From positions 1-35,975 of the forward strand of contig JACPYI010000002.1 of the NCBI GenBank assembly GCA_016196115.1: a stretch of DNA of 35,975 nucleotides. The letters run 5' to 3'. The position numbers were made by a program, and so were the translations under genes. Origin of the DNA: Candidatus Sungiibacteriota bacterium. Its GTDB lineage: Bacteria; Patescibacteriota; Minisyncoccia; Sungbacterales; HO2-52-23. The notes beneath the pieces are model-generated. The model searched no databases and had not been told where the DNA came from. It saw nothing but the letters and a program-made list of their open reading frames with translations. Shown here one piece after another: positions 8,326-28,811 of the stretch; within the stretch, counting starts at the first letter, position 1; each line of letters begins with the position of its first letter.

Positions 8326-8394
8326 TTTATAGAGGATTTGATCCTGGTCCAGGATGAACGCTGGCGGCGTGGATAAGGCATGCAAGTCGTGCGG

Positions 8395-8890
8395 ACACAA
8401 TCGCCAACTTCTAATCGCTAATCTATAATGAAATTATGAAAATGCATTTCAGGGAATTTAAGGTCTATAGAGATGCAAAAACCTTAGTAGTTCAAACATT
8501 CCGTTTGACGAGAAAGTTTTCAAGAGAATTTTATTATTTGTCAGATCAGATAAACAGAAGTGCTTTGTCAATTGTCCTTAATATTGCCGAAGGGTCGGCT
8601 AAAGGGAGTGACAAGGACTTTAATCGATACATAAAAAATTCTCTTGGGTCAGCAACAGAACTATCTGCAGCTTTTGAAATCGCGGAAGACCTTAGGTTGA
8701 TCACCAAGGAGGAATACGATACCCTTGATGCTGAAATACAAGAAGTTATCAAACAATTGGGTGGTTTCTCGAAATATTTGCGGCGCAATGATTAATCAAT
8801 GATCGCTAATCGATAATAAAAAATTCAAGATTAGTGATTGTAGATTTCTGATTGCGTGAGCGATTGGAGATTATAAGTTGGTGATTGCGT
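8395..8890 (+). other. Intervening sequence in 16S helix 6 (V1)
   Basis: The insertion of about 496 nt is bounded by an imperfect inverted repeat: 8395-8423 pairs with 8862-8890, 24 of 29 positions matching plus two G-U pairs. It extends helix 6 as a long duplex of the kind cut out by RNase III in rRNA intervening sequences. It carries the four-helix bundle ORF (8436-8795). It has no group I or group II core, so it is probably excised without religation or retained. Confidence 0.8.
8436..8795 (+). CDS. Four-helix bundle protein of the rRNA intervening-sequence family (S23/TIGR02436 type)
   Basis: The 119-residue product has the family hallmarks: a start like FREFKVYRDAKTLVVQTFRLT, then SDQINRSALSIVLNIAEGS, then NRYIKNSLGSATELSAAFEIA, and a C-terminal LGGFSKYLR helix. 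Such proteins are known from intervening sequences in 23S rRNA genes of Leptospira and Coxiella and also occur as free genes and as diversity-generating-retroelement accessory proteins. Here the ORF lies inside 16S helix 6, in the rRNA sense direction. A perfect TATAAT (8424-8429) ends 6 nt before the ATG, suggesting its own leaderless transcript, although no good -35 box is visible. Its molecular role is unknown; basic residues and the location suggest nucleic acid binding. Confidence 0.88.
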   Translation: MKMHFREFKVYRDAKTLVVQTFRLTRKFSREFYYLSDQINRSALSIVLNIAEGSAKGSDKDFNRYIKNSLGSATELSAAFEIAEDLRLITKEEYDTLDAEIQEVIKQLGGFSKYLRRND

Positions 8891-9246
8891 TAGCGGCGAA
8901 CGAGTTAGTAACACCTTGGCACTTACCTCACAGACGGGCATAACTCCGCGAAAGCGGGGCTAATTCCCGATATTATCTCCGTCGCAAGACGGCGATGAAA
9001 GGCCGCAAGGCCACTGCGAGAGAGGCCTAGGTCCTATCAGGTAGTTGGCGGGGTAACGGCCCACCAAGCCGATGACGGGTAGGGGGCGTGAGAGCGCGAC
9101 CCCCAACGGCGGAATTGAGATACGGTCCGCACACCTACGGGTGGCAGCAGTCAAGAACATTCGACAATGGGCGAAAGCCTGATCGAGCGACGCCGCGTGC
9201 AGGAAGAAGGGTTTCGGCCTGTAAACTGCTTTTCACCGGGAACAAG

Positions 9247-9416
9247 TCCGGCCCTTTTTGGATTCTTGTGTATTGTGTCATCCTCGCGAAACTTGTCCTC
9301 GTGAAAACGGGGAGCGGGGATCCAGAAAAACTGGATTCCCGATCAAGTCTGGGGGAATGACAAGGAAGATAGTAACATACTTCTTTATTTTTGTCAAGAG
9401 TCCAAAAAGGGCCGGA
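9247..9416 (+). other. Intervening sequence in 16S helix 17 (V3) built on a dispersed repeat
   Basis: A 22-bp stem (9247-9268 with 9395-9416, one G-U) extends helix 17. Between the arms lies a copy, in reverse orientation, of the GTCATTCCC repeat family (about 9277-9363), including a GGATTCCCGATCAAGTC core also found upstream of rmuC and between atp genes. There is no ORF. The repeat appears to have landed in the tip of helix 17. Confidence 0.8.
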
Positions 9417-9512
9417 TTGAGCGTACCGGTGGAATAAGAGGTTGGTAACTACGTGCCAGCACCCGCGGTAATACGTAGACCTCAAGCGTTATCCGGATTT
9501 ATTGGGCGTAAA

Positions 9513-9526
9513 GGGTCTCGAACACC
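9513..9526 (+). other. Deletion junction in 16S (helices 21-23 absent)
   Basis: The conserved GGGCGTAAAGGGTCTC runs directly into GAACACCAAAGGCGAAGG. In E. coli the corresponding blocks are about 135 nt apart (roughly 579 to 713). Helix 20 remains pairable (GTCTC with GAGAC at 9573-9577), but helices 21, 22 (5' strand) and 23 with the 690 loop are missing. Confidence 0.75.
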
Positions 9527-9888
9527 AAAGGCGAAGGCAAACTCCTGGCCATTACCTGACACTCATGAGACGAAAGCGTGGGCAGAAAAAAGGATTAGAT
9601 ACCCTTGTATTCCACGCCGTAAACGATGCACGCTCGTTGTTCCGAGTATCGACCCTCGGAGTGACTTAGCTTACGCGTTAAGCGTGCCGCCTGGGAAGTA
9701 CGAGCGCAAGCTTAAAACTCAAAGGAATAGACGGGGATTCGCACAAGCGGTGGACCATGTGGTTCAATTCGACGGCAACCGAGGAACCTCACCAGGGCTT
9801 GAAATGGCAGTGACATTCCGGGGAAACTTGGAACTTCTCACAAGGACGCTGTCACAGGTGATGCACGGCCCTCGTCAGTTCGTGATGT

Positions 9889-10712
9889 GATCCAAAAATT
9901 CGCATCCTCGCGGAGTAATCCGCGATGTAAAACTCGGCTCATATTGGTGAAGTCCCGCAATTTGTGGGATAATACCAAGGGAAGTTGGAAAATTATATGT
10001 CGGTTGTCTTTCGAGCCCGAAAAAATCAAGAATTGATTCTCACGAATCGCCAATTTGAAATTATCATTGGCTCTCTCTTGGGAGACGCGTACCTCAGTCC
10101 GCTCGGGAAAGTTCAGTTTGAACATAGTACCAAAGCGGAAGAATATCTGAAGTGGAAATTCCAAGAACTTGATGGAGCGCGATATAAAAAAATTGGATAT
10201 GTGGAAAGAACAGTAAGCGGAAATCTTACGTTTTCTTGCCGGTTTTGGACAAGACAATTCTTTCGGGCATTACGAAACGAAATCTATAACCCTCAAGGCA
10301 AAAAATATATTTCTTCAGGATGGCTTCAAAAAATTACTCCGCTCGCTTTGGCCGTCTGGTATATGGATGACGGCCACTATGAGAAAGCAAAAAAGAGATG
10401 CATTATTGCCACTGACGGTTTTAGCGATGACGACCGAGAAAAACTGCAAAAGTTTTTGAAGGATACATTTGATCTGAAGATTACGATCTGGAGTAATGGC
10501 AAGATAGCCATGACTCAATTGGAGACACTGAAATTCTTTAAGATCATCGATCCTTTTAGAATCGAGTGCATGGCATATAAATTTCCTAACCCCTTAACGA
10601 CTAATCCCGGAAGGGGATTGATGGTCCCGACAAGATCGGGATCATAAAACGCCGAGCTCCTTCAGTATTATATTGAAGGATGAAGGTATAGTCTGGGTCT
10701 GTAAAAAGACCG
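9889..10712 (+). ncRNA. Group I self-splicing intron in 16S (near E. coli 1078)
   Basis: Splice sites can be deduced from pairing. P1 joins exon GATGT (9884-9888) to GCATC (9902-9906) with a U-G pair at the 5' site. P10 joins the adjoining AATTC (9897-9901) to the 3' exon GAATT (10713-10717). The terminal G is 10712. P2 is CGCGGA/TCCGCG with a GTAA tetraloop (9909-9924). P3 is CTCGGC (9933-9938) with GCCGAG (10651-10656). P5 spans 9953-9969, P8 10659-10679, the P7 strand GGTATAGTC lies near 10685-10693, and P9 is 10696-10711. The joined exons match the length of the E. coli sequence exactly. The intron is 824 nt and carries an endonuclease ORF. Confidence 0.9.
9997..10647 (+). CDS. LAGLIDADG homing endonuclease of the 16S intron
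   Basis: The 216-residue product has two LAGLIDADG-type motifs: IIGSLLGDAYLS (about residues 23-34) and LAVWYMDDG (about 118-126), each with the catalytic acidic residue (D30 and D125). This is the two-motif, monomeric arrangement. It would cut an intronless 16S allele at the exon junction and drive intron spread, and may assist folding. The ORF sits between P6-side sequences and P3', so translation does not cover the core P3-P5 strands. ATG 9997 is preferred over TTG 9985. The frame is intact, suggesting a recently active element. Confidence 0.9.
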   Translation: MSVVFRARKNQELILTNRQFEIIIGSLLGDAYLSPLGKVQFEHSTKAEEYLKWKFQELDGARYKKIGYVERTVSGNLTFSCRFWTRQFFRALRNEIYNPQGKKYISSGWLQKITPLALAVWYMDDGHYEKAKKRCIIATDGFSDDDREKLQKFLKDTFDLKITIWSNGKIAMTQLETLKFFKIIDPFRIECMAYKFPNPLTTNPGRGLMVPTRSGS

Positions 10713-11154
10713 GAATTGTTCCCTTAAGTGGGGTAACGAACGCAACCCCCGTTGCATGTTATATGTGTCATGCGAGACTGCCTTCGTATAGAAGGAGGAA
10801 GGAGGGGATGACGCGAGGTCAGCGTGTCCCTTTGATGCCCTGGGCTACACACGTGGTACAATGGCGCGTACAATGGGTCGCCAAGTCGCGAGACGGAGCT
10901 AATCCCATCAAAACGCGCCCCAGTTCAGATTGGAGTCTGCAACTCGACTCCATGAAGCCGGAATCGCTAGTAAACGCAAATCAGCTACGTTGCGTTGAAT
11001 ACGTTCTCGAATCTTGTACTCACCGCCCGTCACGTTAAGGGAGCCGGGAGTGCCCGAAAGTCCGGATTCGTCCGGAATTACGGTAAGCTCGGTAACATGA
11101 ACGAAGTCGTAACAAGGCATCCGTAGCGGAAGCTGTGGATGGAACATTTCCTAC

Positions 11155-11520
11155 TAGGGAATTTATAGAAGCGAAATACGCATGCTCGGATGGGATATAT
11201 CGCGCGGTCCTTTTCGGAACTCGGGATATGTCTTGAGCACTGCCGCTTCTCCCTAAGGTCGTTTCCCGACTCGTCGGGATATAGTGTTGGTCTTGCCCTC
11301 CTACGCTCTATGAGCTTCGGAAGGGTCTTCTTTCGTTAAAGCTTTGGAGACGTTTCTTCTCCTATTGTATTGGGAGGACTCGTCCTCCGAAGCCTTGGCG
11401 AAGGAGGAGAGCTTTAAATTAAGACCCTGCGGTTCCGTCAGTGAACGGAACGCCCTCCGACGCGCAAGCTTTGGAGGGTACAATCGGAACAGCTGGAAGA
11501 AGACAATTTATTTTTCTTGC
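11155..11520 (+). other. Structured 16S trailer rich in palindromes
   Basis: No gene is seen. A long nested fold is possible: GGGTCTT (11323-11329) with AAGACCC (11421-11427) and TTAAAGCT (11336-11343) with AGCTTTAA (11410-11417). Inside it lie degenerate copies of a CCTCCGAAGC...GCGAAGGAGG palindrome, and CCCTCC/GGAGGG (11453-11478) follows. These look like dispersed repeats collected in an untranslated spacer. Confidence 0.55.
11482..11498 (+). other. 3' arm of the pre-16S processing stem
   Basis: AATCGGAACAGCTGGAA is the exact reverse complement of 8277-8293. The pair closes a loop of about 3.2 kb that contains the whole 16S precursor. Confidence 0.85.
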
Positions 11521-18775: not shown

Positions 18776-19000
18776 TTATCTCGTCGTATACGGCACGAGC
18801 GCCAGATACCGCGCCCGCTTAGCCGCAACAGCAAGGCGGCGCTGGTGAAAGGCGCAGAGGCCGGATTTGTGGCGGGGATATATTTTCCCCTGGCTGCTCA
18901 TAAAACGGCGCACAAGTTCTGCGTCTTTATAATCAATCACGTCGCGATTGACGGTGCAAAAATAACATTGTTTTTGTTCTTGCTGCGGTTGCGGGCGCAT
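18776..19000 (-). CDS. rpsR: 30S ribosomal protein bS18
   Basis: The 74-residue product contains the bS18 signature: CYFC near the start, DYKDAELVRRFMSSQGKI, and PRHKSGLCAFHQRRLAVAAKRAR. It binds bS6 on the platform of the small subunit. It starts 2 nt after the ssb stop in the conserved order rpsF-ssb-rpsR. The two Cys pairs are zinc-type positions kept in some bS18 variants. Confidence 0.95.
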   Translation of the reverse strand: MRPQPQQEQKQCYFCTVNRDVIDYKDAELVRRFMSSQGKIYPRHKSGLCAFHQRRLAVAAKRARYLALVPYTTR

Positions 19001-19635: not shown

Positions 19636-20103
19636 TTACCTTCCCAATATCTCCTCCAATTTTTTATCGAGCGCCTCCAAATCAAGCCGTGTGTCTTCGC
19701 TTGGGATCTGGCGCACTGGATCACGCATCTCTCGCACAGGACTCTTGGCGGTTGAACCAAAGGAGGTACGCGCGCCAATCGAACGGATAAAGGGCTTTCG
19801 CTTCTCGATTTCCTCTTCAAGTATAAGGAATCGGAGCGTCTCGCCGTGTCCCTTGAATTTCTTCTCAAACTCCGCGATGCGCCCGGGCTGCAACCGGAAC
19901 GTGGTGCATCCGAAGTACGCGTTGCCTTGTTTTTTAATCTGGTATGCGAGTTTCTGTTTTCTTGGCTGCTCCGCTCTGCGAATCGTGCCTCCCAGCTCAT
20001 CAATCAGGCCGGAGAGCTTTCCCACATACGCCAAAACCTCCGTTTCGGCGAGCGCAGGGGAAAGAAGATAGGCCGCTTCGTAGTTTTTGGCATCAGAATC
20101 CAT
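19636..20103 (-). CDS. rpsF: 30S ribosomal protein bS6
   Basis: The 155-residue protein has a bS6 core (KNYEAAYLLSPALAE, LGGTIRRAEQPRKQKLAYQI, NAYFGCTTFRLQPGRIAEFEKK, LRFLIL) followed by a C-terminal extension of about 50 residues ending in a predicted amphipathic helix (LEALDKKLEEILG). bS6 pairs with bS18 on the subunit platform. ATG 20103 is chosen over an in-frame start at 20139 because it gives the family N-terminus and lies just downstream of a consensus promoter. First gene of rpsF-ssb-rpsR. Confidence 0.95.
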   Translation of the reverse strand: MDSDAKNYEAAYLLSPALAETEVLAYVGKLSGLIDELGGTIRRAEQPRKQKLAYQIKKQGNAYFGCTTFRLQPGRIAEFEKKFKGHGETLRFLILEEEIEKRKPFIRSIGARTSFGSTAKSPVREMRDPVRQIPSEDTRLDLEALDKKLEEILGR

Positions 20104-20110
20104 GACTTTT

Positions 20111-20139
20111 AGTATACAAAATATTAAACTCTCGCACAA
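20111..20139 (-). promoter_or_regulatory. rpsF operon promoter, near-leaderless
   Basis: On the minus strand TTGTGC (20139-20134) and TATACT (20116-20111) are spaced by 17 nt. Seven nt separate the -10 box from the rpsF ATG. Confidence 0.7.
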
Positions 20140-22695: not shown

Positions 22696-22737
22696 TTTAT
22701 TTGCCTTTTTGTTATGGTATTCTTGACTAAGTTTAAT

Positions 22738-22803
22738 GTCATTTCCGACTTGATCGGGAATCCAGTGATTCTAGTTCTGGATTCCAACTTTCGTGGGAAT
22801 GAC
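22738..22803. repeat. GTCATT...AATGAC dispersed repeat upstream of rmuC
   Basis: The 66-bp unit is bounded by GTCATTTCCGACTTGATCGG and TTTCGTGGGAATGAC, with an inner inverted pair GGAATCCAG/CTGGATTCC. It is nearly the same as the copy between atpB and atpE. Confidence 0.9.
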
Positions 22804-25575: not shown

Positions 25576-25618
25576 ATCTTCGGCGAGATTCAAAATTAAA
25601 AAATTTATAAATCTATAT

Positions 25619-25684
25619 GTCATTCCCGACTTGATCGGGAATCCAGAAACCATAACGCTGGATTCCCGCTTTCGCGGGAATGAC
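25619..25684. repeat. GTCATT...AATGAC dispersed repeat between atpB and atpE
   Basis: Bounded by GTCATTCCCGACTTGATCGG and CGCTTTCGCGGGAATGAC, with inner GGAATCCAG/CTGGATTCC. Its end overlaps a possible ATG (25680) for atpE. Confidence 0.92.
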
Positions 25685-26906: not shown

Positions 26907-27003
26907 GTCATTCCCGCCATGCCTACCGGCAGGCAGGCGAAGGCGGGAATCTAGTAGTAAACCAATGGGGACTTTCTGGATTCCCGATCAAGTCGGGAAT
27001 GAC
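26907..27003. repeat. GTCATTCCC...GGGAATGAC dispersed repeat between atpH and atpA
   Basis: The largest copy (97 bp), bounded by GTCATTCCCGCC and AAGTCGGGAATGAC, with a nested GCCTACCGGCAGGC palindrome and GGATTCCCGATCAAGTCGG at the right side, the same core as in the 16S helix 17 insertion. Confidence 0.92.
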
Positions 27004-27028
27004 AAAGGAGTAAAGAGTAAATCCTATT

Positions 27029-28738: not shown

Positions 28739-28811
28739 TGGACCTGACGGGATTTGCACCCGTTACGCCGCTTGCGAAGGGCGGAATTTTACTACATAAA
28801 ACTACAGGCCC
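28739..28811 (-). tRNA. tRNA, probably tRNA-Arg(UCG), with unusual features
   Basis: A 73-nt cloverleaf on the strand opposite to the atp genes: acceptor GGGCCTG/CAGGTCC (one G-U), T arm ACGGG-TGCAAAT-CCCGT, and an AT-rich D arm (GTTT...AAAT). The anticodon stem CCGCC/AGCGG has a C-A mismatch next to a loop CTTCGCA; with U33 in place the anticodon reads TCG (Arg), but C at position 37 is unusual. A second sequence, TGGACCTG, just 5' of the acceptor can also pair with the 3' strand. Cys(GCA) is an alternative reading that would need C33. Confidence 0.65.

Follow-up and report, generated by a model that had tools for sequence, protein, structure and literature searches.

A 132-nt gap in the only 16S rRNA gene of a metagenome-derived draft genome: probably an error of assembly

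Can a bacterial 16S rRNA do without helices 21 to 23 and the 690 loop, or does a gap at this place say more about a draft assembly than about a ribosome? The P/E-site platform is believed to be essential in bacterial ribosomes, and we know of no bacterial 16S rRNA in which a platform segment is encoded in trans. If true, the deletion described here would break with that supposed essentiality, or would represent a 16S rRNA with a trans-encoded platform segment. On the most likely reading it is instead a caution that a '100% complete' genome may hold a core-deleted 16S gene, which would mislead 16S databases, the design of primers and surveys of ribosome structure in CPR.

The locus lies in the window, the whole stretch of DNA analysed, which comprises the first 35,975 positions of a 101-kb contig (C22). 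The assembly totals 842 kb in 39 contigs and is rated at 100% completeness and 0.45% contamination; its size, its relatives and the many insertions in its rRNA genes suggest that the organism belongs to the Patescibacteria/CPR. Its only 16S match spans approximately positions 8331-11155 on the plus strand and scores 1003.9 bits against RF00177, the bacterial 16S rRNA model (cut-off 50). The conserved core of all domains is present, and the contiguous h21-h23 with 690 loop expected of an RF00177 member is absent.

The gene is heavily interrupted. Alignments to the 16S 5' ends of relatives (95-100%) place its first exon, from the true 5' end to h6, at 8331..8396; Rfam/Infernal begins the gene at 8815 and missed this exon because an intervening sequence of ~490 nt in h6 (8397..8888) interrupts the 16S. 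The ends of that sequence pair strongly (duplex of both ends, -47.8 kcal/mol), and it carries an ORF for a 23S_rRNA_IVP four-helix-bundle protein (8436-8795, plus strand; PF05635, 5e-29). Rfam matches and alignment to relatives define the remaining plus-strand parts: the 5' domain (8889..9261), the 530 region up to the h20 5' strand GTCTC (9386..9519), the central domain with the h20 3' strand GAGAC and the 790 loop (9562..9890), and the 3' part (10713..11155). An insertion in h17 (9262..9385, plus strand, ends approximate) forms a single long hairpin, the fold of 9231-9440 reaching -103 kcal/mol, and contains a dispersed palindromic repeat that recurs at ~20 further genome sites, including 22737-22772, 25618-25646 and 26976-27005 of the window. 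After approximately E. coli position 1075, an intron-like insertion (9891..10712, plus strand) carries a LAGLIDADG_2 homing endonuclease ORF (9985-10647, plus strand; PF03161, 8.6e-32); the Rfam group I model matches only its 3' part (10525-10712) at a sub-threshold 17.2 bits. The same-genus genome G001 has an 850-nt insertion near the 16S 3' end (L034, G001:C4:254-1104) that the window's gene lacks.

In relatives, GGGCGTAAAGGGTCTC is followed by 132 nt running from CAGG to CGTGGG and then by GAACACCAAAGG; in the window, GGGCGTAAAGGGTCTC runs directly into GAACACCAAAGG. The first-pass annotation had proposed that conserved blocks are fused at 9519/9520, and the gap falls exactly there: each of the BLAST alignments to five relatives is interrupted at this point (plus strand). 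About 135 nt, E. coli 579-713, had been thought missing; the absence stands, with its size corrected to 132 nt, E. coli 582-713 by our own count of E. coli numbering. Helices 21-23 with the 690 loop had been listed as lost, which is correct for h21 and the loop, whereas h22 has lost its 5' strand only and h23 the greater part of its length. Both helices keep their 3' strands, so the gap follows no structural unit, unlike tolerated helix loss. Twelve other 16S genes from the class agree without exception at 644 columns; the window's gene is gapped at 43 of these, compared to 0-6 in controls, and the gap is therefore not a product of chance or misalignment. The absence of these 132 nt from the draft genome is thus confirmed as an observation.

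The join itself is clean. The contig has no Ns at 9519/9520, and the breakpoints are blunt, with zero bases in common with the sequence of four family members (GGTCTC/CAGG...GTGGG/GAACACC); replication slippage and repeat collapse were rejected, since the breakpoints share no bases. Judged by alignments to relatives, the left and right flanks look to be of the same lineage. Helix 20 can still close across the gap by GTCTC/GAGAC, as had been pointed out at first pass, a closure common to same-order relatives.

We then asked whether relatives share the deletion. Measured from GGGCGTAAAG+6 to GAACACC or its variants, the segment is 131-133 nt long in all 28 relatives from which it was extracted and 0 nt in the window; one further relative (L014) has an extra insertion in h21. 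Of 383 genomes of the class, 222 have the intact spacing between identical flanking motifs, and no 16S but the window's own has the deleted spacing; a match in G117 does not resemble 16S. A scan of GTDB-220 species genomes, which demands exact flanking motifs and may omit the record of the window itself and those closest to it, gave three pattern matches in other phyla, all of them chance matches outside rRNA. Three genomes without a full gene (G022, G040 and G006) were likewise rejected as deletions, their contigs ending inside the 16S. The deletion is private to one assembly. The only other genome of the genus, G001, cannot serve as arbiter for an intact copy in the genus because the middle of its 16S is missing from the assembly.

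The remainder of the gene has the marks of a working rRNA. Substitutions occur at 13 of the 644 invariant columns, compared to 4-22 in leave-one-out controls; because this load is ordinary, the window's 16S is not an old pseudogene. Within 9430-9470, the 507/524 pair of the 530-loop pseudoknot has changed from C-G to G-C with pairing kept. The swap is absent from all the relatives read at family and order level. At first pass, compensatory changes had been taken as a sign of selection; this holds for the gene as a working rRNA, and not for the deletion itself, because the strands left without a partner are unchanged and the ribosomal proteins bound by the missing helices have been kept.

Those orphaned 3' strands of h23, the h23a region and h22 (9520..9561, plus strand; 42 nt) are conserved, differing from three family members at 2-3 positions. 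Duplexes with the 5' h22 strand, taken in turn from four family members, still reach -17.1 to -18.9 kcal/mol, three of them in native register; with the strands of more distant relatives, pairing is mostly weaker (exceptions, L021 and L004). The missing helices are bound by uS15, bS6 and bS18, the last binding the missing region together with bS6. All three proteins are intact: uS15 including its HSRRGL...LDYL region, bS18 as a domain match at 18797..18943 (minus strand; PF01084, 4.2e-22) and bS6 at 19636..20112 (minus strand; PF01250, 3.1e-16). These results indicate that selection maintained the missing partner until very recently, so that its loss is extremely young, it is supplied in trans, or the loss is not real.

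We probably face the last of these: either the assembly went wrong locally or a chimera arose in the library, at the single-copy 16S of a CPR genome recovered from a metagenome. The organism itself most likely has no such deletion. Misassembly was among the explanations offered at first pass and fits best, because the deletion is private, the substitution load ordinary, the orphaned strands unchanged and the binding proteins intact. The organism would then have an ordinary contiguous segment at this place and a normal 30S platform; contig ends may have stopped at the two highly conserved 16S blocks that flank the segment, and an assembler or gap closer could then have joined those ends without it. 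This reading is also preferred because the contigs of relatives stop here. One contig ends inside the missing segment (G006), another begins 5 nt inside the right flank (G040), and in G003, G026 and G053 contigs end within or just past the segment. In twelve genomes (G001, G003, G004, G017, G018, G020, G026, G029, G030, G039, G053 and G054) 16S matches begin or end at contig edges, and one relative (L018) has Ns within its 16S. Three further points weigh in the same direction: a dispersed repeat ~140 nt upstream of the junction, a 23S contig that appears foreign to the genome (see below), and the documented errors of metagenome assemblies, in which local errors unsupported by any read are known (PMC7111523). 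Those errors include unsupported joins in otherwise good scaffolds, a class to which the window's join would belong; the relatives' 16S contigs also break at this place.

Several observations count against an error of assembly. Repeat collapse in a de Bruijn graph does not usually leave a blunt join with no k-mer in common, and such a join is not the commonest type of assembly error either; this is the main reason why we do not hold the preferred reading with more confidence. The likeness of the flanks in lineage leaves no obvious inter-species chimera. The lack of Ns at the join, the closable h20 and the inability of G001 to confirm an intact copy were counted on the same side.

Some of these features suit a deletion that is real but very recent or confined to part of the population, or that sits in a second, dispensable 16S, an intact copy existing unassembled. 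A blunt join without Ns between flanks of one lineage fits such an event, and orphaned strands that have not yet drifted are what a young event predicts; nevertheless, we consider it unlikely. The dispensable extra copy put forward at first pass has no counterpart in the assembly, in which a search for a second 16S, intact or otherwise, returned a single match across the 842 kb. CPR genomes are usually single-copy for 16S (PMC11270868). Two 23S genes were considered as a sign of two operons and rejected. The second (L063, G000:C17:1-3345), on a 3.3-kb contig, has only ~70-80% identity to the genome's other 23S (C20) and is about as far from it as from those of other families; by sequence, the contig is probably foreign, a binning contaminant, and looks like contamination rather than a second operon.

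That a free-standing bacterial genome should hold a sole 16S gene lacking h21-h23, its 690-loop segment being either unnecessary or provided in trans by a locus missing from the assembly, strikes us as quite improbable. The more specific form in which the 16S rRNA is split, with the 132-nt segment coming from another locus and joined in trans through the retained h22/h23 3' strands, we regard as highly improbable. It would explain why those strands are still complementary to their normal partner and why uS15, bS6 and bS18 are kept; insertions in rRNA are tolerated by this gene and its lineage, and mitochondria contain rRNAs in fragments (PMC3382252). We searched for the segment with a covariance model built from 28 sequences and run on 38 genomes. 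The model found it in 29 of the 38 at 118-149 bits (about 140 bits in family members), including genomes outside the training set such as G003, G011, G013, G016, G018, G019, G020, G026 and G029. In contrast, its best hit in the 842 kb and 39 contigs of the assembly was noise at 10 bits (E 4.6), and in the same-genus genome G001 it reached only 9 bits. The search for a separate 690-loop segment suggested at first pass was run across the 842-kb assembly and gave no match with up to 3 mismatches allowed, nor did 133 nt from a relative match anything there. Since the segment does not turn up anywhere in the 842 kb, we have no positive evidence that it is encoded separately, and the earlier suggestion of a fragmented rRNA finds no support in model, pattern or relative's DNA. 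Such a split is present in none of the relatives examined.

That the 30S subunits truly lack h21, h22 and h23 and have a reduced platform is the reading to which we give least credence, hardly any: h20 can still close and a Plasmodium mitochondrial SSU rRNA model apparently has neither H673 nor H722, which belong to this region (PMC3382252), but the binding proteins are retained, the orphaned strands are unchanged, no intermediate reduction of the h21-h23 region occurs among the related genomes with an extracted segment, and the fused loop is no more stable than shuffled sequences (z -0.88), which also led us to reject its adaptive refolding.

Mitochondrial SSU rRNAs offer a partial likeness. 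The models for Plasmodium and C. elegans lack pieces of the h22/h23 region or show them incomplete, H673/H722 being only partly kept in C. elegans, and the region is therefore not strictly universal (PMC3382252). Those rRNAs are truncated across all major domains, however, and that of Plasmodium consists of many separately encoded fragments, whereas the window's 16S is an otherwise full-length bacterial rRNA from which a single block is gone.

Insertions like those of the window's gene are common in CPR: one survey reports insertions of at least 100 bp in 48% of 16S genes and describes features that the window's gene shares: a LAGLIDADG ORF in an intron-like insertion, a 23S_rRNA_IVP ORF in an insertion and a single 16S copy. 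What it describes, however, are insertions, and its accessible part names no case in which a block of the core is lost (PMC11270868). A second survey, of CPR rRNA helices, lists seven shortened 16S helices, with H12, H58 and H78 notably shorter, and in its accessible portion does not mention loss of h21-h23 (PMC12641178).

Elsewhere in the window, on the minus strand at 28739-28811 and between the genes for the ATP synthase alpha and gamma subunits, a stretch that ARAGORN does not call has a tRNA-like Rfam match (43 bits) with an odd-looking anticodon loop.
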